From NCBI RefSeq assembly GCF_949628265.1, contig NC_088787.1:17846501-17910500 (forward strand): 64,000 bases of DNA, given 5' to 3'. The notes under the pieces were generated by a model. That model made no database searches and was not told where the DNA came from. It was given only the letters and a program-made list of their open reading frames with translations. Origin of the DNA: Cloeon dipterum. Taxonomy: Eukaryota; Arthropoda; Insecta; Ephemeroptera; Baetidae. Within the stretch, counting starts at the first letter, position 1. Every line of letters begins with the position of its first letter. A program made the position numbers and the translations under genes. Positions 7,121-54,200 of the stretch are shown here, piece after piece.

Positions 7121-7533
7121 TTACGTAGATCCGAACTGACGCACGATTTTGGACCATTCCGCTGGGTGATTGCGCTGAATGTGGGAAACAACTTTCTGGA
7201 TTTGCCTCTTCTCTACCGGTGTGCATTGGAAGCAAATGTTCTTGATCACCAGAGGTGCTAGTGCTGAAAATTGACGTACAAGATTAAATCATTGAAATTT
7301 AAAATGCGAAATTAACTACCTTTGAGCTTTCGTCCGACGGGGTCGCAGGGCACCTCGCCGAGGACACACTTGATTTGGCGCTTCATATATCTTGAGTCTT
7401 TTAGCGCGTTCTCCAGTGTTTGGTCCGACAAGGAGGATGGTGGTGGCACTGGCTTATCTATGGGGGCTGCCTCAGATTCGTCAGTATCCGCGAGCGCCAA
7501 AACTAGCACCACTGCCAAAACTGAGAAACGCAT
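7121..7533 (-). CDS. Chemosensory protein (OS-D/A10 family), 118 aa, secreted
   Basis: Small soluble secreted protein of the CSP family, which bind hydrophobic ligands in sensillum lymph or other tissues. Two exons, 7533-7320 and 7263-7121, join at an alanine codon (G|CA). The N-terminus MRFSVLAVVLVLALA is a signal peptide. The four cysteines follow the family spacing exactly, C-x6-C-x18-C-x2-C (CVLGEVPC ... CFQC). The motifs PCDPVGRKLK, TPVEKRQIQK and HPAEWSKIVRQF are typical, and the phase-1 intron lies after the GRKLK stretch. The mature protein is slightly shorter at the C-terminus than many CSPs. A possible leader intron acceptor lies just above the ATG. Insects usually have several CSPs; only one is present here. 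Confidence 0.94.
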
Positions 7534-20761: not shown

Positions 20762-23700
20762 TTAATTAAAGCACGATTCCAAGCAAGATCTGGCAGATTC
20801 AGGTTTCAAAAGTTCGCTGCATTCGTTCAGTCTGGGACATTTGACTGTCCTTGTGGACATTCCTATTACTTCACAGTCACATTTGCTCCAGGTCCCAACC
20901 ATCCACTCTGAGCACGGTCTCTGCAAAGCTTTTGTTTAGATTATTTCTGTTTTAAATTGACGAGATAAAATTACCAAGTTGCAAGGCTCATAGTCGACAG
21001 GTTTTTTGCCTGGACAGTGTTTTGCTGCCACGCGATGTCCACTCTGTGACAGTTGACAGTTCACACCTCGTTTTTTTATTCCATCACCACATGTTGTTGA
21101 ACACTGAAAGTATTTAAATTTTTAGATTCTTCAACGATCGAAAGCAGTTGAATAGCAATTGATATCTAAACACTAAATCCTGGAACGTATTTTGTGATTT
21201 TTTGGCAGATCATTTTTTTAACCTGATAAAAATTACTTACGTGAGTCCAGTCGCCGACATGCCACCTGAATCTCTTCTCCTCCCTTGTCTGATGGCTACG
21301 GAGCCTAGCCTCGGCCCTCTTTCTGTGTCTTCTCACCATCCTCTGGCGAACTGGCTTTGTCGTGGCCGCCACCTTGATGACCAACTTGCTCTTACCCACG
21401 TGCTCCTCGCTCGGCTGGTACCTATCACATTTCGGTAGGCCAGGGCATGCCTCCTCTTCGGGCGGCTTCGTGGCCAGGTCGCATTCCTCGTCAGGAAGAG
21501 CCTGGAACTCGGCTCCTTCCTCTAGGCTGCGGACGCATAGCACCGTCCGGTGGCGTCTGGTGTTCCACGGACCGCACGTTAAGGGACACAGTTGCCAGGG
21601 TCCACTCCACCACCTGGAAAATAAATAGCTAGATAGTTAATTTCCAGGTTTTTAAATAAACTCATCAATACTCTTGATATAATTTTGAGTGCGAAAGAAT
21701 CAAAATAAAACCCATGGAACTTGGTTTCATAATAAAAACTGGTTTTAAAAATTCCTCTTCTGAATTTATTTTTTAACAAAATATCATATTTATTTGGATG
21801 GCCCCCGTAAGTAAAAGTTTTGATATATTTTTTTTGTCTTCAAAACTTCTCTTTTGCCACATAGCCTGAATTTTTATTTAATATTATTCCTCCCACTTTT
21901 ATATTTTTGCTGCAGTTAGATAAAAATCTTGTTATAGCATTTTTTCTCTTTACCTGGCAGGACAGGGAGGCAGGTTGCATGCTTTAATCAGTGGACTTGG
22001 AGGTTGTCCAGCGCTTAAACATTTGATGTTATCCGTCGGTCCTAAATCACCTTCCATGCACTGTGGACGGGCAACCTGCGAACATGAGCTACCAATCAAT
22101 ATCACTTGTTTAGTAATAAGAGTGAAATTTAAAACGAGTTTCTTTAAAAATGGACGCAAACCTGAACGCCGGTCCCGCACGTAACTGAGCAGGCTGACCA
22201 ATCTGGAAATTGCCAGGAAAACTCGGAAACTCGTCCTGGCTTTCTCTTCACCGTGTACTCGTACTTGATGCGAGCCTTTCCCGGGTAAATTATCTGAGCG
22301 TGGTATTGAAATTAAAAGGCCGTAAACCGAGAGCAGCTTATTACTCACATAAACGTGCAGAGATTCATTGGTTGGCCCGTGAACAGTCAGCGACTCTCGG
22401 TGACCCCAGCGTTTGTAGGTTGCGATCGAACCGGCCACCGGAATGTAGTTATTCTCACCTTTGCCCAGCCTTTTTCGGGAGGTAAATTCCATATCAATTC
22501 ACATTTACGTCAGACTCAATTGCCGCGATCCGAAAATTAAAAGTATGCAGCACGGTCGACGTGCGTTCCTCGCGGGTTGCCTAACCGCGAAAGAACTTTC
22601 GCTCTCACCTGCGACCGTCGACATAAAGACGGTCCTCCGCCGGGCCCAACGCGATAAACGCCCGAGAACTGGCCGTCTCCTCCACGCGAATATTGCGTGC
22701 CTCGGGTGGAATATCCGCTATCGCCTGCATACCTGCTCTTCACGACATAAAACGGGATTACACGGGTGCTTTTATTAAATCCGGCCGAACACAACATGCC
22801 TTTGCCGTCTTTTCGGCTAAAGTGGTTGCTGTGGGTGATGCACTGCGAGCCGTCGCCGTTGCAAACGCCGCAGGCGTCCTCCTCGGCCCTCGAATCGACT
22901 TTCCAGTCGCACCCGACTATCTGCACCAAAGAGCGGAATTCGCGATGTACACGAGAACACAAAGCTATTGTCTGAAAGCCGTGTTTTCACGATTACTTAC
23001 CCTACATTTACCTTCAATGCACATGTCGTTGGATAAATTATTACACGGAGTCCCATCTTTCACTACAGGAGCAGCTTCCACGATCAGACTTTCGTTCGTA
23101 CAATAAAGCGAGCAAGGCGACCCTGATACAAAAATATTCGATGACGTAATTTTTAAATTGTATTTTCTTTGCGACTCACCAGGAACGAAGTATGGCTTCC
23201 AGTCTGGATCGAAAGAGGCGCACTGCTGGGCCCTGAAACTGGGTTCTGTCTGCGGACACGACTGTATTTAATGCATATTTATTTCCTGACTAAATTTCAA
23301 GACATTTCTTACTTTTGTGTTGCAAACGCGGTATCGTTTCCTCGCGCCTGTGCAATAAAGACCTCCGTGCGCCGGCTTCGGATGGTCGCAGTCCCTTTCG
23401 GAGGTGGCCACTCCGCCTCCGCAAGTACGCGAACACTCGGTGAACGCACGCCACTCGCCCCAGCCACCGTCAACGGCAACAGGGCTGTCCCGCACCTCCA
23501 CGCACTCTCGATTCATGCACCACTACAAAAAGATAAAAATATTTCTAAAAGCAACGATTGATTAAAAATGATTCAGTCACTACATTGAATAAGTAAAAAT
23601 ATTCATCATTAAACGAAACCCTTTCTGTGTGGATGTACTGCTTTGGATCGAATGTTAAATAAATATAGTTTTTGAAAGACTCTGCTTTCTGCATAAAATT

Positions 23701-26700
23701 AATAAAAATCAAAATACCTTTCTGTGCCCGCAGTTGGTTCCATCCGCTGGAGGCCGCAAGGATGTGGTGCAGGTGCCATTCACAGAGCACCATAAATACA
23801 AGCAAAACTAAAACAATTTGTTCATTATTCCCATTATTACAAAAATATTTTTCATTCATTTCAATTTCAAACTTTACAGATCATTTAAAATTACCCTAAT
23901 TATTTCCAGAACAGCCTCCTTGATATCTTTATAAACAATTTTAAACAATTTATCACTAAGCAGAAGTTTATTGGCAGAAAAAATTATGAAGAGGACAAAA
24001 ATTAACAATATCATGTAAGTTTCATTTAAACCTATTTCACATTTATGAGAAAAGTGCCAGACAATATTCAATGGAATATCATTATTTTAGCCCAAATTAA
24101 CTCACATCATCCTCTTCCGAACAAACAGAGGTTGCTAACGAGCTGTACTGAAGCCGGCACTGGTGGTCTGCGTCGTAGAGGGCGCCTGCAGGAAGTTCAG
24201 AAATATTCGTCGGCCCTTCGGCATCAATAGATTGATCGTTCAAACACTCTCCGTCCCCTTTGCTGTCGGCATTCATCTTTAGAAGTTATTACCATCACGC
24301 GATCATATGCGGCTTACTCAAAGAATCTGGTTATAGCCTTGCGGCTGCACGAGGACCACTCCATGCTGGTGGTTTCCACGTCGAAATTTGGCGTCATGAT
24401 GTGTAGCGCCGACCCATTGCGTGAGAGGCAGTCGTCCGCGTTGTTGCTCTCGTCCCCCGCGTCGTGCACCATTCCGAAACTGTCAAAGTTATTTAATTAT
24501 TGAACACGAACCGTCTCAATTTGGCTACTTGTGTCCGAGCTCGTGAGCAACGGTGTGAGCCACGCTCAGGCCGTTGTCTTGGTTCACCGAACACGCCCTG
24601 TTCAGGTCGCACATTCCACCGACATGTGCCACTCCCAAGGTGCCACACGGCTGGTCAGATTTGGAACAAATGTCCACCCTGGAATTAATTTTTACAAATT
24701 ATGTCCCAACCGTTCATTATTTTGACGCAGACCTTGTCAGCAGGATGGCTACATCGTGATGGTCAGATGATTCATCGTCAGGGTTGTTCGCCTTCTTTTG
24801 CCAGAAGCAGAAACTGTCCAGTGTCTTGTCCGCGTTAGTTGTCACGTTGAACGAGAGACCACTCTAGCAAAAATTTTTGATAGGTTTAAAATTATTGACG
24901 GGGCTAATTTGTCCAATGGGAAAAGGATCAAAATCAGAGAATTTTCTTCAGTAGCATATAGAGGACATTAAACGCGTCACCCCTCAAACCTAATCAAATA
25001 TGGGAATGTTGTAATATATTTTCCATATTTTCTGGGACTTATTTTGGAATGTTTGCATTTGTTTTAACCAAATAAATGTACGATTTTTTTTAAATTATAT
25101 TTTCTTGAACGTCATATGCTAATTTTCGCCATACTTCAAGCCTAAGAAATTGGCTTATTATGTAAGAGACTTGCTGGTTTAAAATTTTGGAATTTTCTTG
25201 ACATTTATTCACCTGCATGCTTTCGTCTTCGACCCTCAGCTTGGCCACAACAATGTTCACCCTGTTCCCCAGGCTCGGGATTCTGTAAAATGCCGATACC
25301 TATGCAGGAAATCGTGAGTTATCTGAAAGCGACGCGCGCTCATTAATCAAACCATATTCATGACGGTAAGCAGATAAGTTTCGAGGTCGGAGGCGCTTTC
25401 CTTGTCGTGGAAATCCATCATGCTGCGGTCGGCCACCACCATTACTTCCACGTTCCGCTCCTTGCTGACGGAGAACGCGTGCGGATTTTCTCCCTTGAAG
25501 TTGTGTCCCAAATAGGGCCGCCGCGTGGCTAATTCCTCAGGAAGCAGGAAATTTTCTTCGTACTGTTCTTGCGACGTGCTTCTTTTCAGTCTGTTAATTC
25601 TTGTGCCGTCTGGCTTTTTGAAGATGCGAGGGGGCTCTGATTAAAAGGTGAAAAACATATTTATAAAAACTAGGATTAATGGGCTGGCGTAGTTTTAGCT
25701 TAGGTTTCATTTAATTTCTTTAAAAGCTTCAATTGATCTATTAGTCTTTATTTTTAATCTTTGTATACATCTTGAAAATTGAATTTAAAATAGTTTGTTG
25801 CCAATATTAAGAATATAATTTAGTGCATATTTAAGTTCTGATTCCAATAAATAGATAAAATAGATCAAGACAGTAACAGGAAAGGTCTAAAAACTCGCTG
25901 GATGAAACTTTGAACGGTATTTGTTTAAGTTTTAATCAACGGTCTACAGAATAATATTTTGTACTTAAACTCACAAAATTGATTTATCAGGTTATCATCA
26001 TAAATAATAAGTCAAGTCTCTTCATGCTTCAACTAAATATCAAGAAATTCAATTATAGCCAAACCAATTTATCTGAGCGCCGTTTTTCAAGACAGCAGAC
26101 AGATACGAGAAGAAAGGTTAGTTCTAAATTGGTTCTCTCTGATTACGATCTGCGAAGCCAAGGCTCATATAAGAATCATTGCGAACCTTCTGTTCCGCAG
26201 CTGTGGGAGGCGCTTTTGGCTGAAGAGGAAGGCCTTTTGTAAATGACATGTTGATGTCCTTTCACACCTCCGTTCCTAATCGGCTCGATCCAAAGCGTTC
26301 CGTGCCTCTCGCTGCGCACCATGCCCGCCTACAACAGCAACAATAAACCATTTTCGAATCACGAGTGAAATAAATTACGACTCGGGCAGCAAAAAAAGGA
26401 ACGGCGTGTTATTAAAAAATGAGTCAGTTTTGGGTGTCTCCGAGACCGTTTTAATAGCGCGCGCGGCGTATAATTTATTTTGGCGAGTGAGCGAGACACA
26501 TTGATCCGCGGCTGATAAAGATATATTGCTAATAAATAACGCGCGCGCGTGTGATGCAACGCAACAAGCCCTCGAGGAGTGGTCTGCTTTTTAATGTCAA
26601 AAAGTCACCAGAGCGGTAGTCATTAAATTAAAACCGTGTCGTGACTCTCGTTTGGCGTTTCTTGAAAAATTGCCGCTGCGCAGCGGCCGTCTGCTTTTTT

Positions 26701-29700
26701 ACCAGCGTATGTGTACACACGCTCATGAGTGTCTCTAAATAAGACTCTCAAGTAGAGTTCTCCTCGTGTGCGGCGGTGGGTGCTGCATCTCGTTGCCGAC
26801 CGGCATATCCTCCCGATAAATGGGTGGCTGTAAATCAGCCAGCGTCCGTTTTTAATTTTGCACGGCTTCCTTTGCGAGCCGCAAAGAAAGGAACAACCTG
26901 CGCCGGGTGGGTGGCTCGGCCGGCTTTTTATCATTGTGCGCACGAGATCGCCGTGTTTTGGCGCCCGATTTTTTCTCCTTTCTTTCTTTTTCACGGAGCA
27001 CGCCCTTTGGCCTGATCCAGCGTTTGGAACGGACTCAGGGCGTTTCGAATGTTCAAAAACCACTAACACGAGGACCAAGAGTGAAAAAAGTGTAGCTATT
27101 AATTAGACTTCGTTTGACGGGTTTCGTTTGTTTGCAATACAATATAGCTTTTTACTTTGTTTGCTAGATATTGATAATGTTGAATTTTGAAAAGGTCGTT
27201 TTCAACCTACGTCCTCTTTTTTAAAGCTAAACATTTCTTAATTTTGTTTGGTTTCTGATCATTTCGAAAGCTAAAAAAGAAATAAAATGATTTGGATTTG
27301 GATGCCACTTTACTGAATGATGTCTGTCCAAAAATGCGTAATTTATAGGGGAATATTGAAACACTCGCAATTATTATGCAATCAGCAAAAATGCAGTGGG
27401 ATTTATAACTCGAGATGTCTGATCTTAATACATTTAGTAATTTTTAATACGGAGAATAATCTGAACTAAACTTCTATTAAATTCACTCTTTATCACTTGC
27501 ACCAATAAAAAAATAAAAAATGAATAGTCTTGTCATCTACAAATACAAACCTTGAAAATAAATGTTACAAGACATGAATTAATTTTTAAACTGTCAGTAT
27601 TTCTTGTTATTACACAAATTTTTGGAAGCCACATTTTAAAGCAAAAATGGCTGTTCAATTACGCTATACATGTACAACTATATGTACTTCTAGTTTTTAG
27701 CGCAAAAATACTATTTTTATTTGCTTTCAAAAATGGATACTTTACTCGCAAAGCAAGGCAATGAAATGCATACAAATACCATTTATCAAATCATATTTTA
27801 AATTTAAAAATGCTTGGATATTTTCATTTCATAATTATGATCTCCCATGTTTCAATTAATTGCCCTCCCAGCTCTGATTGAAATTTTTATTTTTTTATTT
27901 TTTATGTTAATATTTTATTATTATTTTTATTAAATAAATCAGTTGTTTCACAGAACGTTCCATTCCAAGCAACCGTATGTGCTTGTTTGATATTTCGTTA
28001 TCAACGACGATTTCGAATAAAAATATATCGGAGGCCTTTAAATGGAAAATTCACCGATAGTCGCGAAGACAACTTAGCGAGGTCCGAACTGAATTATTGA
28101 TTCGCATGTGAGCAACTCGTCTTTTATGATGAGTATTAGGGCCGCTTGATGCTCTTAGCGCGCGTTCAAATCAAAAGTAGAGAGTAATAACACTAAAAGT
28201 CAAATTTCAAGCTGATAACGACGGCGGACGAACCAATAAAAATGGCATGTGTCTCTTAATTGACGACCCCTGGGGAGTGTGGCTGCTGTGTCGCATTATA
28301 AATCGAAACGCAGCGTGTGGGATAGGCACAGGCGGCTCTGAACTGGATTACGCGCCGTGGCGCCAAAATGAAAAGCTACCGGAGCCGCGGTGCCGAGCGC
28401 AAAAAGACAGATATACACTCTGTGGCATATAAAATCGCGCGCGGTTCAGAGGCTGCCTGCCTGAGAGAGTGATCTCGGCCTCGGTTGGCGCCGCCAATTT
28501 ACCCGGGGAGTCATAAATACCAATGAAAATATTAACACTTGAAGCATTGGTTGCGCCTCTGCACAAACAGCACTCGTCGCAGACACTCCTGTCAGGTTGT
28601 TATTAACAACAATAATAAAGAAATGGGGCCTTTTCCAATCTGATTCGCCCCGATGTGCTGCGTAGCGGGTTTAATTAAAAAATTTCGAGTCGGTAAAAGT
28701 ATGCAGGCCGGCCAGACACCGGACTACACCTCGTAAGTAGTTATTTGGCGCCACCTTCATAATTCTAATGACACAACGCGCCAGCCTCGTTCTCTCCGCG
28801 CCCGCCGTGCAGAAAGAGATAAACGTAGACAGGGTTTATTGCAAAACGGTGCTATTTGTGCGGCAAAGGCAAATAAATAACGAGCAGTAAGTTGGTTTTA
28901 AGTACCGACTCGAACGCTTATAGGTGGCTTTCTCGCTCTTACGAGATACACCAGAAGGTTATTTAGGGTTGTGAATTTTTGGCTGCAAATTATCATATCG
29001 GCTAGAGGACAACTCTGTACAGAATTTTTTTTATTCTGTGACTTGTGAGATATTCTTCTACATTTTGGCCTCTTTTTCAGAGAATGGATACCATTTATCA
29101 CTCATATCTTATACTCTTTTTAGCTTAATATTGAAAGAATTTGTAGTTTTTATTGCCTCTTTAGTTGCAGAACGACTTTGATCAAAATAGATGGTTTTGA
29201 GTTTTATAGTTGATTCAGACTGTTTTAAACAACGAGAATTTATTGCTTGTCTCTTTTTGCCGAAAAGAGTTTCGTTCTTCTGATTCATTTACGTTTTTTT
29301 TTTCTTGAAGAATATCAATACATACCGTGATTTAAAAAAATATGGAGACGTAGGCCCTTTGGCGTACGAAAATATCCAATGCCAAAGTTGAAACATTAAG
29401 GTACAAAAATTAATTTTCTTTTACAAACTAAACAAATTTGGCGTATTTTTAATAAAAATCTCTAAATTTAGATTCCAAACATGTTCTTATAATCATAGAA
29501 AAATGTACAAAGGTCATAAATTGATACCTTTTTATATCAACAATTATTTGAATTGTTCTAAAACGCATACTTATTTTTCAGAGCCTCCACTCTGCACATT
29601 TGTTGGGTTATGAGCTCACCACCGAGCGGAAAACACGGGGCCTGATTTTGCCATCTTTTCGCCTGCCCGCAACGAGGTGTTTGATTTAAACTTTGATTGA

Positions 29701-32700
29701 GAGGTGCGAAAACCAACAAGTTTAGTGGCGAGTCGGCACCGGTCCAGCGTCCCAGCCCGTTGAACAGTTTTAGCATTTCGAGTCATCAAATTAAGCACCT
29801 TCAATTCATGTAAAATTTACTAAATAGCCTCATATTCCAATCCCTAAGGTAGAATTTTAAGACTTAAAAACGGATTGAATTTGATACTAGGTTAGGAACT
29901 TAATATTTTAGCCTCAATAACTGCTCCGTGTTATGAAATATCGTGCTCATTAAACATTCACACAAAAGAAATATTGTTTGTTTAATTTGAATGCCCTAAC
30001 ATTTACTTATGAATTATGAAACTTTTTTATTTTGAATCACTATTAAAATGGCTGGTTTAAAATTCACGACCCTTGATATTATTTATCGTCATTTTCTCAG
30101 ATTTTAGCGGCGATAAAAGATGTGCGCGTTGTCGTCAGGCTGATTTGCATGCGAGCTTACATACAGCGAAGATTAGCACGACGAGCAGACGGCGTGTCTT
30201 TTAATGCGGAGATTAAAGTCGACTTGAGGCTAATGTGTGGCGACAAATAACCGCGAAATTTCGCTGTCGCGCGATAAGTTAATCCCCTAAATCTCCTCGG
30301 CGCGCGGAGGTGTCAAATTCCCCGTGCGCACGCGAGAGAGTATGTGATTAATAAAGCAGAAAACGAACAGCGATCTCTCACCAATCCGCTGCACGCGGAG
30401 AGCGCGACCGTCGAGTCAGGTTCGCCCTGGACGACGCCCTGAAAGTGACACGAGTGGAAGGCAGATCCGATTGAGCGACGTCTCCTGCCGCTCGGACGGT
30501 GCACGCTCAGTCTGGACGAGATGAAGTCGACGCTGGGCCACAGCTCGAGGATCAGCGGCGCATCCCGCAATGGCACCTCAAACTGCACCTTGTGCTCGTC
30601 CAGGGTGGCCCTTTTCGACCTGCTTGAGTGCCACGGGCTCACTGGGTGGTGGTGCTCCAGATCGCCGCCGGCACCGATCTTGCGTGGAATGACCACCTCA
30701 AAGTCAGTCAGCTGCCCAGTGAAAATTCCTGTAAAATGGAATGCATGAATTTTTTAGAAATGGAGTGGTCTGAAAAGATCGTCGAAAATTCAAAATTGAG
30801 CACATTTGAACCAAACGGGATTAAGAATACCATGCCATGAGGAAGATAAATACTTTAAACGGAGGATTTTAAAGAAATTATCAAACATTTTCTGTATAAT
30901 TTAGGGCACTAGCTTGACTGCAGGAATTTCTAAGCTCGGAAAAACTGGGAACAAGGCAGCCGAACTGCGTTCACAAAAATTCGAGTGATTCCCTGATATT
31001 TCCAAATGTGCAGAACACACGACCCAACACTTCATCTGTCAAATTTGTTTATTTCTGCCATGTGTAGTGTTATCCTTTTACACATCTTCTTTCATCGTTT
31101 TCCCCTTTCCTCCCTCCTTCCCTAAAAAATTTCTTTAAAATCTTCCTTTTGAAATAGCGAGAAAATTTGAATGATTTTTCCCCGCAAAAAATCAAGCTCT
31201 ATATGAGATCTGCCTTTTTGCTATTATTAAAACTTCTTAATCTTAATTCTGCACTCTTTCTTATCGTCTATAGTAGTGAGGAAGATTATTTATGATATTT
31301 TAAAAACCATTTGATTAATTGGCCTAATTTTCAAGGTTATTGCAATCGTGAGGTACTAAAAGAAAATGACGCCTTTAAATTCGAAAAGAAAATGAAGGAT
31401 ATGATTCTTGCTCAAAAACCTTACAGCTAGCTAATACTTTGATAAATAATTATAGTAAAATATTGCAATTCAAACCAGTCCATTTTCAGAAATAAAATAT
31501 TTCTATAAATTGAGGACTCTTAAACGGAAAAATTACTCCATGCTAAGTTCTCTGTTTAATAATTTTAAGATTTACTTTGAAATAATGATTAAGCATAAAG
31601 CAGTTTGAGTTAATTATTTAAAAATCAGACACAATAAACTGCACTAATCAAAGCAAAAGCAAAGCCTTATAATAAGAATTATATTTTGCTAATTTTGCAT
31701 TTGCCCGTTGACTCGTATTGTAAAGACATTCTTCGCAGTGACAAGGCAATAGGAGATATTTCAGCATTACGAGGATCTAAAACTGGCTGCTCTTTGTCAG
31801 AGATGGCAAAAATTTGGTTAAATTAGTGACTCAAAATGCGCACGGGTGCCGATTCGACTTGCTGATTTTCGCACCTTTCCACCGGCTTTAGGGACAAATG
31901 TCTGGCGTTTCAATAAAAGACCTCGGTGCGAGGAGGCCACTCGAGCCCCATGTTATCCGCTCAGCGGTGTTATTGGAATCCGGAGAGCTCATAGCCTACG
32001 GGATGTGCGGAGCAAAAGGAAAAAAATATCTTGAAATTTTACACCACTTTAACCATTTACTTGAGGCAGCTTTTAATTCCACTCCAAGAGATCTATTTAA
32101 TGGTGTATGCCTTGTTTAGGAAAATATCCTAGAAATTACAAGTATAGGGAGGCAGTGCTCGCAATTTGAAAAGAACACGAATTTTGAAGCCACTTTTGCA
32201 AGCTAAAAATTAAAACTTTGATTTATGCAATAGAGAATTTTTTTATATTTTTTATCACTCTGAGGCGTTTACTCAATTGAATGGTTGACAAAGACAACGA
32301 TCTCTCAACGTCGCGTCAAAACATCTTATTTTTCAACGAATTCTTCTTCAAATGAATCAAATGATTTTTAAACTGAACGACAGGATATTATGGTTTAAAT
32401 ATTTTTAATGTATCATCAGTCTACAGCAAAAATCTGTAAAACTGTTTCCACATTTTTGCGTCATTTATAAAAATTCCAGCATCATATTTGAAAATTTGGC
32501 TCTCAAATCGGCCCTCGCAAGTTTACAGTAATAGAGACAACTATATTTACATTAAAATCTAGATTTAAAAAGTACCATAATGAACAAACTTAAAAATAAT
32601 AACCTCTAAAGATTTGAAGTTGAGCGCGTTGTATACATTTATATCTCTTTAAAGGACTAACAATAAAATAAGCAACCGATTCAATGCTATATGTTTATCT

Positions 32701-33112
32701 GTTGCATATCTCTATTTGAGCTTAACATTGTGCTGCAATGCAATAAATTGCAAATTTGACGTCCAATTAAGGGAGCAAACACAGACGTCAATTACCAGAA
32801 ATAAAATTGCGATAAACCAACATCTCTAGCTTTCTATCGCTCAAGTCCGGCATTGTGCGCACGTAATCTGATGTTTCTCTCGGTTTGTTGAGTCGCGCGA
32901 GGCCTCTCGTACGTTCGTATTATAGGCGGTGGCTCTCTTTGCAGCGAGAACAACGTAATTCAATTCTGAATAGCAGAGCGAGCCGCTTTGTTTCCGCAAT
33001 CAGAGAGCAATTAGACGCGGGCAATTGCTGCATGGGCGACCGAACGAGAGCGAGAGAGCAAACGATCAGAGAGTAAATGCATTCTTCCATGCGTTATTTA
33101 CGTGTGTGTTTA

Positions 33113-33143
<31 letters not shown>

Positions 33144-34310
33144 GAGAGACGATCGTTTTATACAAGCTCTCTAGCTGTCACTCGCGTGTTTGTTTTCCAC
33201 TGTCGCACGCGGCGGCGGCGGCTGCGATGGCGACGGTGAACAGTAAAGTTACATTTTTTGAAAAGTCTCAATTAAACAATTTCTCCGCCAACAATGATGC
33301 TCAAGGAAAACCGCTTTTATTAAAATAATGAGTCGCTACTGCCACACAAAATCCTCTCGCGAGGTCAGTCGCCGCGCGCCATGCAGGACTAATGAGACAA
33401 AAACAAGCGATTGGCACCTGACGTCCACCTCCTCAGTCAGAGGCAAATTTATGCTTTAATTATAGGCTGCGTCCGCTCGAATGTCATGACGATGGTATTG
33501 GATTCTGCGTGTGCGGCCACGCTGCTATATACACAGTTTATATCGTCGTATGTACACAGCACCGCGCCAGGAACGTTTAATTTGATTTTGATCGCGCAGT
33601 TATCAGGTTACGCGACCTCGATCGAAGCACTCCGGATAATCGATATGTATAACAATTTCCAACGACCCGTTTATTATTATTATTTGCAGTTCGTAAAACA
33701 CGAGGTTGCAAAACTGCTCGTAATGTGAAACGACTTGTCGGCGGCAGACAAGAAAAATGTTTCAATTTTCGGTCCGATTTGCATTCAAATGGACCCGCAT
33801 AGTGGGATCTGAATATGGTAGATATACGCTGCAGCTAATAAATATTTGATTTTTTTCAAGTCCATCCATTTAAAGTTTCGACTTAAAAGCTCTTCTGCGA
33901 AATGAACAAAGCCGATTTTTAAATTTTGTCGTTCACTTCCTGAATGTCCTGAAGGTTATTTAAATCCGTTTTGCAATGAAATTCAAGGCCTGATTGTAAG
34001 TAAAATGCATTCGGGCGTTTTGTTTGAATTCGATGCTTCTATAAAAAAAGAAAGAAATCCCATCCCGTGGGCGATAGACGATAAAAATTAACGCAATAAA
34101 AATTTGACTCGTATTCAAAATAAACTGAGGTCCAAGCGTGTGAACTCACGGCCGAAAATAATAGCAAAAGTCTGCGAAATCTAGTCTCAAACTCTCAATT
34201 TGCATAATTAAGACATAAAATATGGTACAGTTACCTTGGAACGATTGGGCCGACGCGAGTAGCAGCAGCAGCAGTAGCGGCGTCAGCGCGGCGCTCAGGG
34301 TGCGGATCAT
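20762..34310 (-). CDS. ADAMTS secreted zinc metalloprotease, about 1,106 aa, 21 recognised coding exons
   Basis: Secreted extracellular-matrix protease. Exons: 34310-34235, 30728-30382, 26328-26187, 25637-25353, 25299-25213, 24863-24733, 24678-24529, 24479-24318, 24262-24106, 23807-23718, 23522-23313, 23261-23180, 23122-23001, 22920-22800, 22732-22609, 22469-22349, 22293-22162, 22075-21954, 21613-21241, 21103-20975, 20920-20762. Order: signal peptide (MIRTLSAALTPLLLLLLL), prodomain, furin-type RLKR, catalytic domain from RNVEVMVVAD, zinc site HELGHNFGMVHD around residues 400-412, Met-turn HIMTP, disintegrin-like LPAGALYDADHQC, TSR1 (WGEWRAFTECSRTCGGG), Cys-rich (ACGVCNGDGSQC), spacer (GPTNESLHVY), then four more TSR-like repeats (DWSACSVTCGTG, GPWQLCPLTCG, CSTTCGDG, GTWSKCDC). 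No C-terminal PLAC domain is evident. Active-site residues look intact. Exons 3 and 4 do not join in phase, so a small exon is probably missing. The exact subfamily is unresolved. Confidence 0.92.
26329..30381 (-). other. ADAMTS intron between the prodomain exons
   Basis: About 4 kb, mainly AT-rich, with GC-richer, CG-rich blocks at 26440-27060 and 28200-28820. No coding exon or transposon end recognised. The GC-rich blocks contain spurious open frames on both strands and are better explained as regulatory or first-exon-like sequence. Confidence 0.4.
32033..32212 (+). repeat. Diverged dispersed repeat, copy 1
   Basis: By eye this aligns, same orientation, with about 47010-47195. Shared words in order include GAGATCTAT, a run ending TTTAGG, an AAGTA(TA)GGGAG block, TTTGAAAAG, and GCAGCC/GAAGCC followed by ACTTTT. 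I estimate roughly 65-75 percent identity, not computed. The family is unknown and the ends are approximate; an old MITE or SINE is likely. Confidence 0.5.
33105..33139 (+). repeat. GT dinucleotide microsatellite
   Basis: A (TG/GT)n tract with one interruption, followed by a short GA run (AAAGAGAGAGA). It lies in ADAMTS intron 1. Confidence 0.8.
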
Positions 34311-34620
34311 GGCGCACCCTGAGAGGTGCTGGCTGCTTGGTTGGTTGTCGACCCAGCGAGCACTGCGCGCCTTACCTCCGCAGCGCAGCCTCTCCCGCGA
34401 CGGCCGAGAGCAGGAAAAGGCTCGTTCGCGAGCCAATCAGATAGCCTAATCAAATGCAGCAGGCGCCGCGCACCAGCGTAACCGGCGGTCGCCACCAGCC
34501 ACCGTCCGACAATGAGGCGGCTGGCTGGCCGGCCGGCCCGCCGTCCAAGCTCTGCGCTCGCATTAAATCATCTCGCTGCTCTCATCCTGCGCGCGAGAGC
34601 TGTTGCAACTTCGGCCACTC
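34311..34620 (-). promoter_or_regulatory. CG-rich ADAMTS leader and promoter region
   Basis: Some 300 bases upstream of the ADAMTS ATG are GC- and CG-rich, then the sequence turns sharply AT-rich. The frame is open upstream of the chosen ATG, but only the ATG at 34310 gives a clean signal peptide, so it is preferred. Confidence 0.4.
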
Positions 34621-43600: not shown

Positions 43601-44039
43601 CTCCCCTTTTAGCCTTGCGTGGAAATCTCTGCATCCCTTCAGATACCGATACCGAGGGTGCTTTACAGGAAGCTACACTGACAAGCCCTCTGGATTTTTG
43701 TTATTTTTATAATCTCAGACAATTTCCGCAGATTCTGTTTTTATCATTTATCGAAATATCTCGAATGTTTCGTTACTAGTGACTTTCAATTTGAAAATTG
43801 TATTGACACTTTATAGAATTTTTAGATTACTATCGTTTATTGCTTTTCTGTTTCAAGCTGTAAAAAAATTAAACTAAGGTATTGCGTGTTATTTTAGTAT
43901 AAATTAAATAAAAAAGTATAGTAAAAATGTAATAAATAACTAAAATTTTTAAATGGCAATAAAATCTTTAGTAAATCAAAAATTTCCCTCTGTGGTTCTC
44001 TTACCTCCGAGAGGAAGGACTGAGTCGGAGGGCCTTCAT
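37688..44039 (-). CDS. Ankyrin-repeat and SOCS-box protein (ASB-like), 289 aa
   Basis: Probable substrate adaptor for a Cullin5/ElonginBC ubiquitin ligase. Four exons join in phase: 44039-44005, 39751-39543, 39031-38614, 37895-37688. The middle has ankyrin-type helices (LAEFLLAAGADPDETDPEGR and TRLLLNNGASVW), only about two clear repeats. The C-terminus ends with a SOCS-box-like segment: QFSCLSAIRRRLG followed by LLGLSPPLKRTLL, the usual BC-box then LPLP...LK.YLL pattern. The N-terminal exon (MKALRLSPSSRR) is short, sits in a CG-rich promoter 4.25 kb upstream, and rests on phase agreement and a good donor alone, so it is the weakest part. The particular ASB member is not identified; few ankyrin repeats make it unusual for the family. 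Confidence 0.75.
39752..44004 (-). other. Intron 1 of the ASB-like gene
   Basis: About 4.25 kb. Contains a GAAC/GAGC tetranucleotide microsatellite at about 40516-40565 and GC-richer patches near 40250-40900 and 42880-43090. No exon is recognised on either strand. Confidence 0.4.
40516..40565 (+). repeat. CGAA/CGAG tetranucleotide microsatellite
   Basis: At least six CGAA units followed by GAGC/GAGT units. This gives repetitive Asn-Glu-Arg-Thr or Arg/Ser-rich frames on the two strands, which are not genes. Confidence 0.85.
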
Positions 44040-44330
44040 GGCTTCTGTCAGTCCGAGAACACGCGCTGCATGAATCGGGAGCACTGACTGCACGAGAGTG
44101 TCGTTGGCGCGGTGTCCAGGCGAAGACTGTAGCTGCGAGGGAACGGGCACGATGCACGGCGCTTCCCACTCCTCGCTCGCTCCATACAGCGAGCTCGCTC
44201 ATCTGCTTGTTGAGGCTATTAACACTCGCGACTTACGCGAACCCGCCGCGGCCGGCACAGCGAGCAGGTGTCCGCGCGTGTTTTCTCGCTGCTCTCGCCG
44301 CACAATATAATCAATGGTAATAACAATCGA
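44040..44330 (-). promoter_or_regulatory. CG-rich promoter region of the ASB-like gene
   Basis: CG-rich block of about 290 bases directly upstream of the ASB-like ATG, ending about 90 bases before the poly(A) signal of the dynein-tail gene. The two minus-strand genes are thus tightly tandem. Confidence 0.4.
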
Positions 44331-44422: not shown

Positions 44423-44428
44423 TTTATT
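44423..44428 (-). terminator. Poly(A) signal AATAAA for the dynein-tail gene
   Basis: Minus-strand AATAAA about 50 bases past the TAA stop at 44479-44477. It supports a real transcript end here instead of a continuing dynein heavy chain. Confidence 0.55.
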
Positions 44429-44476: not shown

Positions 44477-46737
44477 TTAGACCTTTTTGTACTTGTGATC
44501 TGCAACGAGAGAGGTTGGAGCATTGTCTCTTTTTTTCTCGACGGCACACTTACTGGGGTTGAACATGATGGTGCCGACGCTGGGCAGATCCTTGGTAACC
44601 TCAAAGATGCGGGGCACGCTGGAAGCGATGAACTCTCGCGCTCTGATCATTTCCATGCCCAGCTGCTCGACCGTGATGTCCAGCTTGAACTTGATCAGTG
44701 GTTTCGGCCTCTCATTCTCCTCGGCACAATCGCTCGGCTGTCAAAATGAAAAGAAAAACGGTAGATTTGTTTCTCTTTCTTGGTAATTTAATTTAAATAA
44801 ACCTCTCCGTTAGCAGTTGCAACTGCCAACAAAATTTGTTATTTTACAAAATAAAAAATTTAATACCGCTATGATCTTTCTCCTCTTTAACTTTTAATTA
44901 AATTAATTTTTAACGCATTCATTAGTTTGAATTTTGATTACAGAATTAAATCTGAATAATTTGTTAAATTGTTTGGAAGGGTAAAATATGAATGTTCTTC
45001 CGACTTATAGAGTCCCTCACCTAATTTTATCAAGAAATTTTTAAGTTTTGCAATGTATTCATTCATTAGAATTTAAAACCGTTCAGTTTTTTTAGTTAAA
45101 TGAAATGGTAAATTGTAACTGAATTTATGTGGGTCATAATTAATGTAAATTGAATGATGCTTGCACCTGGTAGGAGAGAATTAGCTTGGTCCAGGCATCG
45201 ACAGTTGCAAGCGTCTTTACGCGCAGTCGACGGCACATGAGTGACGTGATGCAGTTGAGAAGGCGCACCATGTCCGCGCTTACCCCGTGTTCGCGGCTCA
45301 GAAGTTTGTCCCACTGCTTCTGGTGACGCCACATGTGCTCGGCACAACGAAAGATGAAACTTAAAGTGAAATTTAAAAAAAAGATCTTGATAATTTCTAA
45401 CAAGTACAGAAGTATCCTTTTTCGAGCATTGTCTAGGGAAGATATCACCTTTTCCTCCAGCTCGTACAGGTACCACGGACGATTATCGGTAATTTCTTGC
45501 GCTGAGAGAAATTCATAGTCCTCCAGTCTACAAAAAAATCCAAGGGCAAATAATAGCAGTCTCAAACTAATATAAAATCCGTTGAAAATATCGAAAGAGT
45601 TATTAAAAAAATCAAATAACTTATTATTATCTAAATAAAAGATACTCGCACTATACTTTTTCAGTAAACACCATAGCCATATGATATTTAAAATCATCTC
45701 ATTTTTTAAATTATGTTGCTATGAAACTAATTGAGCAGTGCTTTTTGTAAAAAATAATAATAATAATGAATGGGGTGAATACAGTCTGTTCCAGATTGGG
45801 TTCATGGTGAGGACGATAGTGGAGGCGGCCATGAGGCTGTTCTCGCAGAAATTCCTGGCCTCGAGGAAGGACTGTCGCCAGGGTGCGGGGCCGGTGATCA
45901 CGATTCGAGGAAAGGGCGGCGGCAGCTTCCGCACGCCGAGCCGCTCCTGTTGCCATGGTTCCCTGAGAGCCTCCTTCAGCAGGGCCTCGCGGCTGCCGCG
46001 GTCCCAGTCGCTCTCGGCCCGTTTTCGCAGCCACGCGAACAGACTATGCAGTCTGCGCATTTTCGGTTTGATTTTGCGATGAATAAATGAGAATTGTTAA
46101 TTTTCGCACCGTTTGTCTGACGCGTACTTCTGAATCGTTTTCGCAACGGCTCTTTCCCACACGTGCGCCGGCATTTGTTCCACGTCTTTCGCGGTGATTC
46201 CCTAGAGAAGCAATAGGTTAAAAAGCATTTTCTTTTATAGCAAAAGCCGTGTTTCAGCTGAATTAACACTTCTGTGAGGTAGTACTCGATGTACTTCAAC
46301 TCCTGACTTGTCGGCTCAAATTGTATGTCCTCCTTAAAAAGCTCCAACTGGTTCCGGATTTGCTCCTCGGGCATTTTCGAAGCAGGATCCTGCCACTTGG
46401 TGCCAACGTCAACCTGTGATTTTATGGTTCTGAAATGTCAATCTTGTCCTGAATTTTGATGTATGAAATTACGGTTCTGTGCAGAAAAGCAGTCAGTTTC
46501 TCCTTATACTGGCAGCCGATCAGCTCCACTGGCATTTTGCCGCGGTTTTCAGGCCGCTACGCATGATGCCATAGTTAACTGAGAATTTTATTCCGTAAGA
46601 AATTGGTGAAGTGCACTGTTTACCCTAACGAAGCAAGAGGTGACGATGCCTGACCTGTCCATCAGGTCCAGTGGGCCGTCCTTTTTGCGGTATTTGGCGG
46701 GAGGCGCAAGATCTTCATTACTAGGTCGTTTATCCAT
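44477..46737 (-). CDS. Stand-alone axonemal dynein heavy-chain tail-like protein, 407 aa
   Basis: Nine exons join in phase: 46737-46624, 46556-46473, 46413-46270, 46201-46110, 46052-45783, 45527-45408, 45359-45167, 44737-44554, 44499-44477. The product resembles the extreme N-terminal tail (DHC_N1-like start) of inner-arm dyneins of the DNAH3/7/12 type. PAPWRQSFLEARNF corresponds to the NPWHSSYVQARN block, LLNCITSLMCRRLR to FYSCVSTLMSNQL, and PLIKFKLDIT to LPIFKIELT. No linker, AAA+ P-loop or stalk follows; the frame stops after NHKYKKV and a poly(A) signal follows. Eight further kilobases to the left hold no dynein exons. The last intron (44553-44500) is only 54 bases, keeps frame and has no stop, so retention gives 425 aa with the same end. 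Tail-only function is unknown; a broken gene remnant is possible, but the open, in-phase exons argue against long decay. Confidence 0.72.
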
Positions 46738-48269: not shown

Positions 48270-51200
48270 CTAAAATCTTCCTGCGGCCTGGTCATTGCCC
48301 TTGTAGATCCTCAGAGGAGTATAAGATCCATTGGTCGTTGTAGCTGAAACGAAAAATGATAAGGTTTAAAATGGAAACAAAAAATTGAGTGGGGGAAGCC
48401 GCACCTTCAGCCGACAATTGGCTACCTTGTGAGTTCTTCTTCCTGCCGCATCCTGGCCGGACGCAACAATAGTAAATGCAGAAGTACAACCATCCAGCTA
48501 CGGCTGCGGCTACGCTGCAACCCTTGAAGAAGTCCCAAGGACCAGTGGCGCTAGTCACGTTCAGAACAGTGCTGGCAACCAGGGTGCCCAAAAATCGACC
48601 TGGAAATTAGTAAGACATGATATTTTTGCGGATATTTATTTTCATTGGTTACGAAAAATTCAGATTTGATCTGAATATTTTGCGTAAATTTGCTTAAGAA
48701 AGTTTTCTTCGCTAAATAAGTTGTAGGGTTGTTTTAAAAATGGTGTCTTTTTCTGTCTCTATAATGCTCAATAGTACAGAATCTAAATTAATCTATACTT
48801 TTAATACTTAAAATTATAAAAGAATAAAGTCATACCCAAGCAGAAGTGCGCTAGAACTATGAACGCCTGCGAGGTTGCGGTTATATGTTTGGCGGTCAGG
48901 TTTCTGGTGTAAATGACAGCAGTAACCCACATCAAGCAGAGAGTGAAAACTTCAAAAATCTCGCACACCAATGCTGGCCAGGCAGCCTCCAAAAATCCAT
49001 ACCCTAGAAAAACAATGAAAATTGAGTTTGGGCCTTAATGGCGTTGGAGGCGTAAGACGAACCAATAAATCGGATTATGTAGAATGCGAAAGTGGCGATG
49101 AATATATTTGTAAATCCGCAATAGTCGATCAAGGTCTCTGCATTCCACAGCAGGGGCATGGTTAGGAACAGGCCAAAGGTCACAGTGAGTCCCATCTGCC
49201 AGAATTCGAGCTTGTACATATCCTTCAGGAACCTGAATTTAAATGGAGAGATATATTTAACATTAAAATTTGCAACAATAATTTTAACTCTCACCAAGGG
49301 AAATAGGTTTCCAAAGCGCCCCAGAAAATTCCGAGGAGCAGGAGGACAAAGAGGAGGACGACAGCCTCGCCAGGGTTGGTTACCTTGACCGAGGGCCGCT
49401 CACCCAGCTCCATCCGGCGGCTGTACCACACCGACGGCAGTTTGACCCACGAGAGAACCAGTGCGGCGAGCAGGGACAACAGGGCAAAGACCAGAATGGG
49501 CAGAGCGGACGGCGTGTTCTGCCACGGCGTGATTTCGTAGTGTACCAGCACGCTGACCAGAGGGGTGATTACAGCGGCGCCCAGGGCGCCGAACGAAAGC
49601 TCGCGGCCGACGTCGCTGTTGTGGACGCTGGACAGGACGACGACCATGGTGTCGGCGAGGGGCAGCGCGGCCACGGGGAAAATGTCGGCCACCGAGCGGG
49701 CAAGCAGATAGCTCCAGAAGGTCACTTGCGGGTCGGTAGATGGCAGGTGGGCTGGACAAACCTTTAAAAAGAAATAGTTATAAAATCAATAAACTTTCAA
49801 TCTCAGGGATATTTAATTGGCTTAAAAATGTATATTGAATCTTGAGTTGCAGTTAATTTGTAGAGGTCCGTCACTCTTTGGCGTAAATCTAGTTTGTATC
49901 AAATTCAAACTATTTTATTGGACGTGGTAGCGATTATTAAATTGAATATTAAATTTTACTCCTTTAATTTCCTTTATTCCCTTTAATATATGCGACAATG
50001 GAGTTAACCATCAGCATAACTTTAGTTAAATTCTAAAGATTTAGACGAAGTTTATTATTTTTTTCTCACCTGTTGACCACCAGGAACCCATTCCCACAGG
50101 CTGCTTCTCAAGCTGCACTTGACCACGCAATCTCCTCTGCAGTAGAGGGACGCGAAAGTATCGTTTTCATAGCCGAGTTTAATGTTGCTCAATGGATATT
50201 CGCATGTATCGTCCTTGGTGACCACATCAGGCAAGCTGATGTTGACCGTCAAATTGAACGATGGGTCCATCATGTTGCAGACAGGGCTTCCTTTGGAGCT
50301 GCAGAAGGGTGCAATATAATAATAAAATAATATATACAAATTCAAAGACTGCTTACATGCTACCGTTGAAGCACAGAGTCGGCGGCATCGGTTTTTCTTT
50401 GATAATAGCATCAAAATTATTGTTGGACTCATCTGCTTCCGTGAGGGAAATGGAGCCCTCAACATTCGGCTGTTTGTAATCATCATCATCATAGTCGCTA
50501 TGCGGTGTAGTCGTTGACGTCACTGAGGTCTTGGAAGGTTCGCCTTTTTCACCACAGTCATATTTGCAATTCTTGATGTGCACCTCCCATGCCTGAAACG
50601 AATAGATTTATTTACATGAAGAGTTGACCAAGATAATGCAATACAGGAAAGCCTGCACATAAAAATATTTTAATTAAAGGTTAACTTTTTCTCTAAATGC
50701 ATAATCGATTTTGAATGGTTTCAAACACCTCCATGAGCTAGCTGAATCCACATTTTTTGTTATCTTGAACGTTATGGCGTACTACCACTTTTTCGTCGTA
50801 AAAACAATACATGTTGGTCTTTTTGCACCTTTGCAGCATGAAAAATAAAATTGTGGCACTTATCTAAAGAAGCATTTTAGTGTTATCCCATTAAAACAAC
50901 AACTTACGGGATTTCCGGTATTTACACAAATAATGATATCAGTAAATTGACAAAAATGTTTGGACTGCTTTGTTTTGTTTTTAAAAGTGTTGTATCGAAA
51001 AAAAATAATTTAAAAAAAGAGTTGTTTATATATTACATTATTTTTCATTTTCCCCATATATATAATTTAAAATTTTCAAATCAAGCATGTTTCAACAATG
51101 TTTGATGTTTGACCAGAACAAAAAAATAAAATCTTTAAAATAAAACACGCAATCGCAAACCTAAATTCTTTTTAAGACTTTTGTTGTAAGTTTTCAACTC

Positions 51201-54200
51201 CATTTGTATAACGCAAAAGTTTCAAGGTCTTGCATGAAATTACTTCGGGACTAATTACCTCACTATAAAGGGTTCCAGCCATGAAAATTACTTTCATACA
51301 GTTCTTACCAAACATACAGTTCCTTCAACACTTGAAATAATAAGTAACAGTAAGGAAAACGCGTTTCTTAAAAGTTTTTGAAGTCGTTTTCAATATACGA
51401 CAGTATTACAGTGGAAAGTGCGTTGGTAGATGATTAAAAGAGATGTCAAGTTGCTTGATATCAATTGCTAGTGGAGTTCCCAGCCTGACAAGTCACGCTA
51501 TCACTTATAGGATTTCCTTCCTTGGTGGCCAATGGCGAAACCAGCAAGCGCCTTTAAGCAGACACATTTGCTGAATAATCTGGGATAACACCATGCGCAT
51601 ATCAAGCAAGCAATTGTCAGCGGCAAATATTTATTAAGCGCTCATGCAAGCACCTGGCTACCAAACAAGCGCGTGAAACCAAACACTCCGGGCCATAAAT
51701 CACCGCACGCCAAACCTCATTTCCCCTGGCGTCGGGCGCAGGCCCTCAAGGAGGAAACTTCATTTGTAAGACTGCCCAGCCGGCAGGCGGATCTCCAATT
51801 TCCTGAGCTCAACCCCGAAATTTGCGAGAAACAAAATGATGATCGAAAAAACTCACCCTATCGTCGGACCAGTGGGGACAGTGCGTCGAGCAGCGCTCCT
51901 GCACGATTTTCGAGAGCTGCGATTCGCACCTGAGCTGCACCTGCGGTGCTTTGTTCAGGGTGGACTCCTGGAAGTGGTTATTCTCGGAGGTTAGCGGCAC
52001 TGCGAGCAGGAGGCAGTAACACGCGGCCCCCAGAAGGAGGCAGCTGGTCAGCAACACCTGCTAATTAAAAATTAATCAATACTCATTTTGTGTGTCGCAC
52101 CTGAGATTTAATTAACTAATTCTGGCTGTACGTTATTTTGTGGGCCAAGTTTTTAAAATCACATCTTAACAAATATACTATACAGAGAGGGGTTTCAAAT
52201 TTGTAATTTTTGTGAAAAGCAACCAGTTTGGCTTATTTCTCTTGATGTTTCCTAAACATGGACAGTAATTGTTTTAAGTATATGCCGTTGAAGGCTACAT
52301 GCACTCAAGGAGTTCCTGGTGCTTTCAATTTAAATTAAATGCAGCTACCTCGTTGTCTATATAGCGAGCTGTTTTTATGTGCAAATAATACGGAGTGGGG
52401 AAAATTTCTGTATTATTACACAATACTAACATTAAACACCGAGGTATACCTATAGCTGCACTTAATTTCAACTAGAACGAGGTTAGCATTTTTAAATTCA
52501 ATTTTTTCCAGAGAGGAATAATTTTTTAAAAGTCTTTAATTGGTCTTTGAACAGTGGGAGCATTGCTAATAGTTTGAAATAATGCAACTGTTGCTGTTTG
52601 CACGCCGATGATCCAACATTAGGATTAATTTTTACCTTTAAATTGCCAACACCAATGGGTCTTTAATTTTTTATGTAAGATTCGTTACTGGTCCTCTGTA
52701 CGTGCATTGAATTGGTCATTAATTGATTGAGCAATCGAATATAAGGATATATTGTCAGTGAATATCAACAATGAAATTATTTAATGTAATTAGTTGGCAT
52801 CCCGCCAGACTAAATGCTATATATTATGATTATGATTTTTTTTAAATAATCATTTTTGTTCTCTTTTCGTCGCAGGTGCACAAAAAGTTAGTATGCGTAA
52901 TCAATCAGCCTGCTGAACAAAACGAGCTGTCACTTGCAGCCGGGGACCAAAATTCAAACCGCACACTCTTCCCAGGACGATTAAATTTAATGAGAGCCAT
53001 CTTTCATCAGGCGGCTCCAGATTTAGCAAACACCCCTTGTGGCACACACAACGAGATGATTAAACGCTATCCGAAAATCAATACACGCTGCCTCTGGCAT
53101 ACAGTGCGTGAGGCCGAATTAGAGCCGGGCGTGAGAGTGCAAAAATCACATTACTTCCAGTCGGAGGGTGCGACAATGACCGCACGGACGGAACGCGGAG
53201 ACCAACCTTGTGTTTGCCGAGCCGGTCAGAGGCCGGGCCGACGATCAAAGGGCCCAGGATGGAGAGCAGAGGGGCCACGGTCGAGATGACGCGCGAATGG
53301 TACTCCGAGAGGCCGACTTCTCGCATGTGCAGCGGCAGGAAGAGCACCAGGCACGCCAGTCCTACGGGGCAGACAGGGTTAATGCTCGCGTCGACAGGGT
53401 GGATTGGTGGATTTGCTTAATTGACTAGGGCGGGCCTGATTGGACGCACCCGGCCGGAAATAAAACAACCGGCTTTGGCGTGTGCCACCAACCAGCGATT
53501 GCGGGGTGTGCAAACAAACGCCCGCGCCGCTTTTTATTTGGACGGTGATTCTACTTCAATAATGGAGCTCAAATGAATGTTTGTGCGGGGGACGCGTTCG
53601 CGAAATCCGCTTTTCGGTGCCTAAGGCTATTCATCTCAGGAGGCGGTATTATTGATTTCGGACCAAGCCGATCTTGTTTTGAGCCTTTTTCGCTGTCGGA
53701 TGTGCTCGAGTGTTGGTCTAAACTTGGGAGCCTCCAGTTTCTTCGCCCTGCCGATTACGCTAGGCCTGACAGACACTTTTCGTAACAAAGTTTGCAGCTG
53801 TAATTAAACCTCTTAAAACTAATAAAGTTTCCACCGCCAACAAGGCTCAAATTCACAATCAAAATTGGTTTATGAGCGCCCATACATTTAATTAAATCAA
53901 TCGGGAAGTGAAACTAAACATAACAACTTTGGCGTCGAGTTTAATAAAAGATATCAGGCTTTAAAACAAACAAAAGTCAATAAATACCGATTTAGTGCCC
54001 GACAGACATGCCCCGAGTCTCGAGCGGAAATGAAACAAACCTACCTCCGAAAAAGAGAAACAGGGATATCCTGAGCGGAACGAGCGGCCAGTTGACCAAC
54101 TTGGACGCCTTATTCCGGATGCCGGGCTCTGGCCTGGAGGTGTTGCGAGTCGTGGACATCTCCTCGATGGAGGCTGACAGCCCCTTGGACAAACACGCCT

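Follow-up and report, generated by a model that had tools for sequence, protein, structure and literature searches.

A tail-only dynein heavy chain gene in Cloeon dipterum and its possible origin by fission of an inner-arm dynein gene

The tail-only gene and its surroundings

The window analyzed here is a stretch of 64,000 nucleotides (C2:17846501-17910500) from a genome of 190 Mb in 10 contigs. On its minus strand, between positions 46737 and 44477, lies an intact spliced frame that encodes a protein of ~404 aa through nine in-phase GT-AG exons. Exon 1 (46624..46737), which begins with the start codon at 46737 and has an alternative donor noted by eye, and exon 2 (46473..46556) were both placed by the splice model and fall outside the alignment to the axonemal heavy chain DNAH3. 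The DNAH3-like region begins in exon 3 (46270..46413) and continues in exon 4 (46110..46201), both of them placed by the splice model and phmmer alignment. Exon 5 (45783..46043) carries a conserved P-x-PW stretch that is common to the tails of DNAH3, DNAH7, and the C. dipterum locus gC described below. The 3′ end of exon 6 (45408..45527; splice model) and the 5′ end of exon 7 (45167..45359; splice model and phmmer alignment) are uncertain, and alternatives at this junction yield proteins of 383, 404, 406, or 420 aa. The 407 aa given by the initial annotation fall within this range, with 404 aa in the present model. Exon 8 (44554..44737; splice model and alignments) ends at approximately DNAH3 residue 505, and exon 9 (44477..44499) holds the stop codon. 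AATAAA polyadenylation signals are found at 48 nt (44423..44428) and 102 nt past the stop, the former in agreement with the earlier placement about 50 bases on.

The initial annotation had described nine exons joined in perfect phase. A single open frame does run through them, and none of the base shuffles of the coding sequence (0/2000) kept an open frame. The count of nine is less secure, as the last two may be a single exon: the 54-nt “intron 8” has a GC content of 0.48, against 0.21-0.37 for the other seven introns, and if left unspliced, it contains no stop and leads to the same stop codon. Because this stop is reached with or without the splice, the short end of the frame is robust. The protein is short relative to relatives of about 4,000 aa, as would be expected of a decaying pseudogene fragment. 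However, the 404-codon frame is intact, its introns are GT-AG, and eight of the nine exons have a GC content of 0.44-0.64, well over that of the AT-rich introns. We regard the chance of a pseudogene as close to negligible.

Searches of the Protein Data Bank with phmmer related the protein to the tails of single-headed heavy chains. The best match was to bovine DNAH3 over residues 163-505 (1.8e-14), followed by human DNAH3 over 190-470 (8.4e-12), bovine DNAH7 over 165-409 (3.1e-10), and human DNAH7 over 165-410 (1.2e-7). Six chains in total were returned at E up to 10, the remaining two being chance matches. A tail-only gene of DNAH3/7 type was confirmed. DNAH3 is the single-headed inner-arm dynein c (Drosophila CG17150), and DNAH7 (Dhc36C in Drosophila) has a related tail to which the window protein matches more weakly. 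DNAH12 (Dhc62B), also with a related tail or motor, gave no match to the window tail at E up to 10. Against Pfam, the tail protein reached the cut-off for no family and matched no dynein domain. The DNAH3 chains are 4,116 aa long in human and 4,069 aa in bovine; we take PDB entries 8j07 and 9fqr to be human and bovine, respectively. The 4,069-residue chain Xx of 9fqr is labelled putative malate dehydrogenase 1B and behaves as DNAH3. It was taken for DNAH3 on the grounds that its length does not fit the label and that it behaves like human DNAH3 in searches.

No motor exons accompany the tail gene in the window, which contains 0/41 DHC_N2 and 0/24 DHC_N1 matches from genome-wide searches. The promoter of a next gene, previously placed right behind the tail gene, was not confirmed; an open frame at 43897-44232 (minus strand) had no Pfam match, and a scan for promoters of bacterial type yielded nothing usable. 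Just upstream of the tail gene, 48300-53420 (minus strand) contains MFS_1_like exons, two of which were tested and scored over the Pfam cut-off, with an MFSD6-type appearance by eye. Exons resembling an ADAMTS-type metalloprotease were seen by eye at 21169-34436 (minus strand), where one exon matched TSP1_ADAMTS over the cut-off and another, at 25350-25640, had no Pfam match. A signal-peptide-like exon at 7315-7548 (minus strand) showed a weak match to OS-D (insect chemosensory protein) under the cut-off. Repeats around the tail gene are short, low-identity pairs only. Near the start of the window, the 137-nt stretches at positions 950-1086 and 1127-1263 are 98% complementary and lie 40 nt apart; this inverted repeat is perhaps a young foldback element.

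Dynein heavy chain loci of the genome

Genome-wide, the 41 DHC_N2 matches grouped into 12 heavy-chain loci, and the 24 DHC_N1 matches fell in seven of the 12, though both counts can be lower bounds. A search for COX1 gave just one match, of 46 positions and under the cut-off, and by eye the starts of three contigs carried no telomere repeat. We examined the five heavy-chain loci without a DHC_N1 match, designated gA to gE; the best-chain call for each locus rests on a single exon or on a few pieces joined together. By phmmer, gA (C2:16.28 Mb, minus strand) was closest to DNAH3 (5.3e-114). The best chain for gB (C1:26.12 Mb, minus strand) was DNAH7 (3e-37), and for gC (C2:32.17 Mb, plus strand) it was DNAH3, both for the motor (1.2e-53) and for the tail (5.5e-40). 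The top match of gD (C3:31.12 Mb, minus strand) was a chain presumably from Chlamydomonas (1.8e-36), then DNAH12 (2.9e-32), and gE (C3:30.89 Mb, plus strand) was closest to DNAH6 (4.1e-23). Tails of their own were detected by profile for gB and gC, and a tail exon of gD was seen by eye.

The initial annotation had raised the possibility that the tail gene is a duplicated 5′ fragment and proposed a search of the genome for a full-length parent. A one-piece DNAH3 orthologue with its tail in place does exist in the form of gC, a joined but diverged paralogue. Its tail, the only other one recovered clearly by whole-genome searches with tail proteins, is just 27% identical to that of the window over 191 aligned residues, which speaks against a recent duplication.

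In Drosophila, the single-headed types DNAH3, 7, 12, and 6 are described as present and DNAH1 as absent, according to PMC6367277. Relative to this set, gA would be either an additional member of the 3/7/12 group or a re-assorted one. Its position among DNAH3, DNAH7, and DNAH12 was examined in a tree of nine sequences, in which the adjoining nodes had supports of 23 and 67; both the tail and gA should be read as closest to DNAH3 by score only. Over the linker and AAA1, the best identity to mammalian chains (joined fragments) was 61% for gA, 49% for gB, 38% for gC, and 33% for gD. The strong divergence of the latter three may indicate that the axoneme of this insect is unusual.

The tail-less motor gene gA and its relation to the tail gene

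The locus gA is a DNAH3/7/12-type motor gene at ~C2:16.27-16.285 Mb on the minus strand. Pfam searches with seven of its pieces recovered DHC_N2, AAA_6, AAA_8, MT stalk, D6, AAA_lid_11, and Dynein_C, its linker/AAA1 exon has 61% identity to bovine DNAH3 over 297 residues, and by eye its frame reaches a normal-looking C-terminus. At the other end it is short, with 332 residues before DHC_N2 in our model versus ~817 in DNAH3 (estimated from the alignment). Homology to DNAH3 begins at residue ~571 by profile or 641 by phmmer. The profile of the post-split region (DNAH3, DNAH12, and gC) matched gA at 6.3e-08 in a one-sequence search, and the first ATG of gA lies ~80 residues ahead of this match. 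Immediately upstream of the ATG are 1.2 kb with 29% GC and no frame over 66 codons, and beyond them, sharing the strand of gA, is a RING gene (one exon tested; extent and stop judged by eye). A tail would thus have no space directly at gA.

We found no tail in the ~27 kb upstream of gA using a profile built from the window, DNAH3, DNAH7, and gC tails, which gave a best E of only 1.2. This profile recovers the window, gC, and gB exons, with gB, outside the training set, as a positive control. It missed the gD tail exon, a false negative, and a tail lying upstream of the RING gene could escape it if diverged strongly enough. Across the whole genome, the window-tail protein gave nine matches, of which seven were to itself, one to gC, and one on C4 (E 0.35), and the bovine DNAH3 tail gave four (three in gC and one in the window). 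A third DNAH3-like tail was thus found by neither of these searches, both of which missed the gB and gD tails.

The tail gene and gA occupy the same chromosome, C2, and the same strand, 1.6 Mb apart with the tail upstream. Their coverage of DNAH3 is roughly complementary: the tail extends to residue 505, and gA runs from about 490-535 to the C-terminus. In one alignment, the two cover DNAH3 163-976 with a ~20-residue gap at the junction, where the first gA residues are placed without significant homology. The break site falls at a stretch, 534-574 in human DNAH3, that is unaligned there and nearly gapless for the bovine chain; it is possibly a tolerant loop. Other partners for the tail were also considered. 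Both gB and gC already carry tails, and gD was rejected because one of its exons, compared by eye with DNAH12, matches the overlapping final section of the tail. The gE locus, whose tail was viewed as open frames only, was set aside given its best matches to DNAH6 chains.

The initial annotation had suggested that a free tail could compete for dynein partners. The tail gene itself stands, and as gA is tail-less, lies on the same chromosome and strand, and starts approximately where the tail stops, half of a split heavy chain is the more likely identity. We therefore lean toward gene fission, in which an inner-arm dynein heavy chain gave rise to a tail gene and a linker-motor gene whose products presumably re-associate. 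On this reading, both would derive from one ancestral gene and both would be expressed. The level of divergence is in keeping with such a pairing: the tail is 23% identical to DNAH3 over 314 residues and the adjacent part of gA is 22% identical over 400 (28% over 449 for gC), so that the tail fits gA.

The same low identities, 23% to DNAH3 and 27% to the gC tail, would also suit an independent tail-only gene, either an old 5′ duplicate or what is left of a heavy chain that was lost. Such a gene would have a role of its own, for instance in competition for docking partners, and gA would have lost its tail in a separate event. Base composition favors this alternative as well. Third-position GC is 0.69 in the tail and 0.49 in the gA sample (0.44-0.58 among gA exons), and the recent compositional histories of the two accordingly differ. 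Yet two events would be required, with breakpoints coinciding within a few tens of residues, and the motor with the highest conservation among the four compared, gA, would be left without an anchor. On this evidence, we consider independent origins unlikely.

The shared contig and strand, the upstream position of the tail, and compatible splice phases could also mean that the tail and gA are one real gene, divided by an assembly error or by a 1.6-Mb intron; giant introns are described for some fly genes in PMC11207136. This was judged quite unlikely overall, as the tail gene has its own end and gA has the RING gene immediately before it. An intron of this size would have to span exons of other genes on the same strand, of which TSP1_ADAMTS, protein kinase, and prenyltransferase exons (over the Pfam cut-off) and an ankyrin match (under it) were found within 44 kb; a giant intron is therefore unlikely. 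Misassembly is a less likely explanation too, given that there is no N in the window or in the five fetched 20-kb gene regions. In addition, the DNA of both junction regions had only self-matches in the genome (very common words skipped), and misjoins usually occur in repeats.

A further alternative is trans-splicing of two pre-mRNAs into one full-length heavy-chain mRNA. The donor at the end of exon 8 of the tail gene reads GTAAGT and is in phase 1. Upstream of the ATG exon of gA, a candidate 56-nt exon was seen by eye whose acceptor is in this phase as well; it lacks an ATG, and its frame stays open into gA. Splice scores for this junction are no different from the spread seen for 13 other introns. 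There is also precedent in Giardia, where the accounts in PMC5224939 and PMC8494341 list the dynein heavy chains beta and gamma among the trans-spliced genes, with coding sequence likewise spread over separate loci. However, the tail frame stops near an AATAAA with intron 8 either spliced or retained, the gA ATG lies just past the putative acceptor, and phases would agree by chance one time in three. Pairing of two half-introns is a feature of Giardia-type trans-spliced genes. Here, the longest complementarity between the flanks is 11 nt, compared with a mean of 9.6 and a maximum of 14 in 200 shuffles (forward matches only). We find trans-splicing quite unlikely.

A two-piece inner-arm dynein and its precedents

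Few proteins are larger than dynein heavy chains, which are ordinarily made as one chain. DNAH3 is one chain in human and bovine, with its tail and motor corresponding to two loci here. In the literature, judged mostly by titles and abstract openings, we found no report of a dynein heavy chain divided between two genes in an animal. Giardia rejoins its RNAs, whereas in C. dipterum an end is apparent for one half and a start for the other. Campsomeris, a scoliid wasp, may offer a parallel at the protein level: its mitochondrial cox2 is described in PMC5374615 as one protein made as two complementary polypeptides, apparently forming a heterodimer. That gene is mitochondrial and small; the present case would concern a nuclear giant motor gene.

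If true, an animal nuclear gene would have undergone fission in such a way that each half can be identified. A natural two-piece dynein would mean that tail docking and motor function are separable in vivo, would mark a tolerated break point within the tail, and would make the tail gene a ready-made test of the role of the first 500 residues. Were the halves trans-spliced instead, the case would resemble that of the Giardia dyneins, but in an insect.

Under fission, a single-headed heavy chain of the DNAH3/7/12 group would have been split into two genes on C2, with the window gene retaining the N-terminal tail, equivalent to DNAH3 ~163-505, and gA retaining the sequence from about 490-535 to the C-terminus. 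The two polypeptides would meet again after translation, with helical-bundle contacts holding them together during cytoplasmic preassembly. Docking on the doublet microtubule, together with actin and DNALI1/p28, would fall to the tail piece, and gA would provide the linker, AAA ring, and stalk. We tentatively propose that the heavy chain consists of a ~404-aa docking tail and a motor estimated at roughly 3,500 aa, associated non-covalently, such that the tail would now be a separate dynein-arm subunit, possibly anchoring more than one motor. In Chlamydomonas, each single-headed inner arm is described as carrying actin with centrin or a p28 dimer, and in human the dimer of DNALI1 makes contact with tubulin and DNAH3 is identified as IDAc, as set out in PMC10266980. 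In the C. dipterum genome, p28/DNALI1-type sequences gave three matches at two places.
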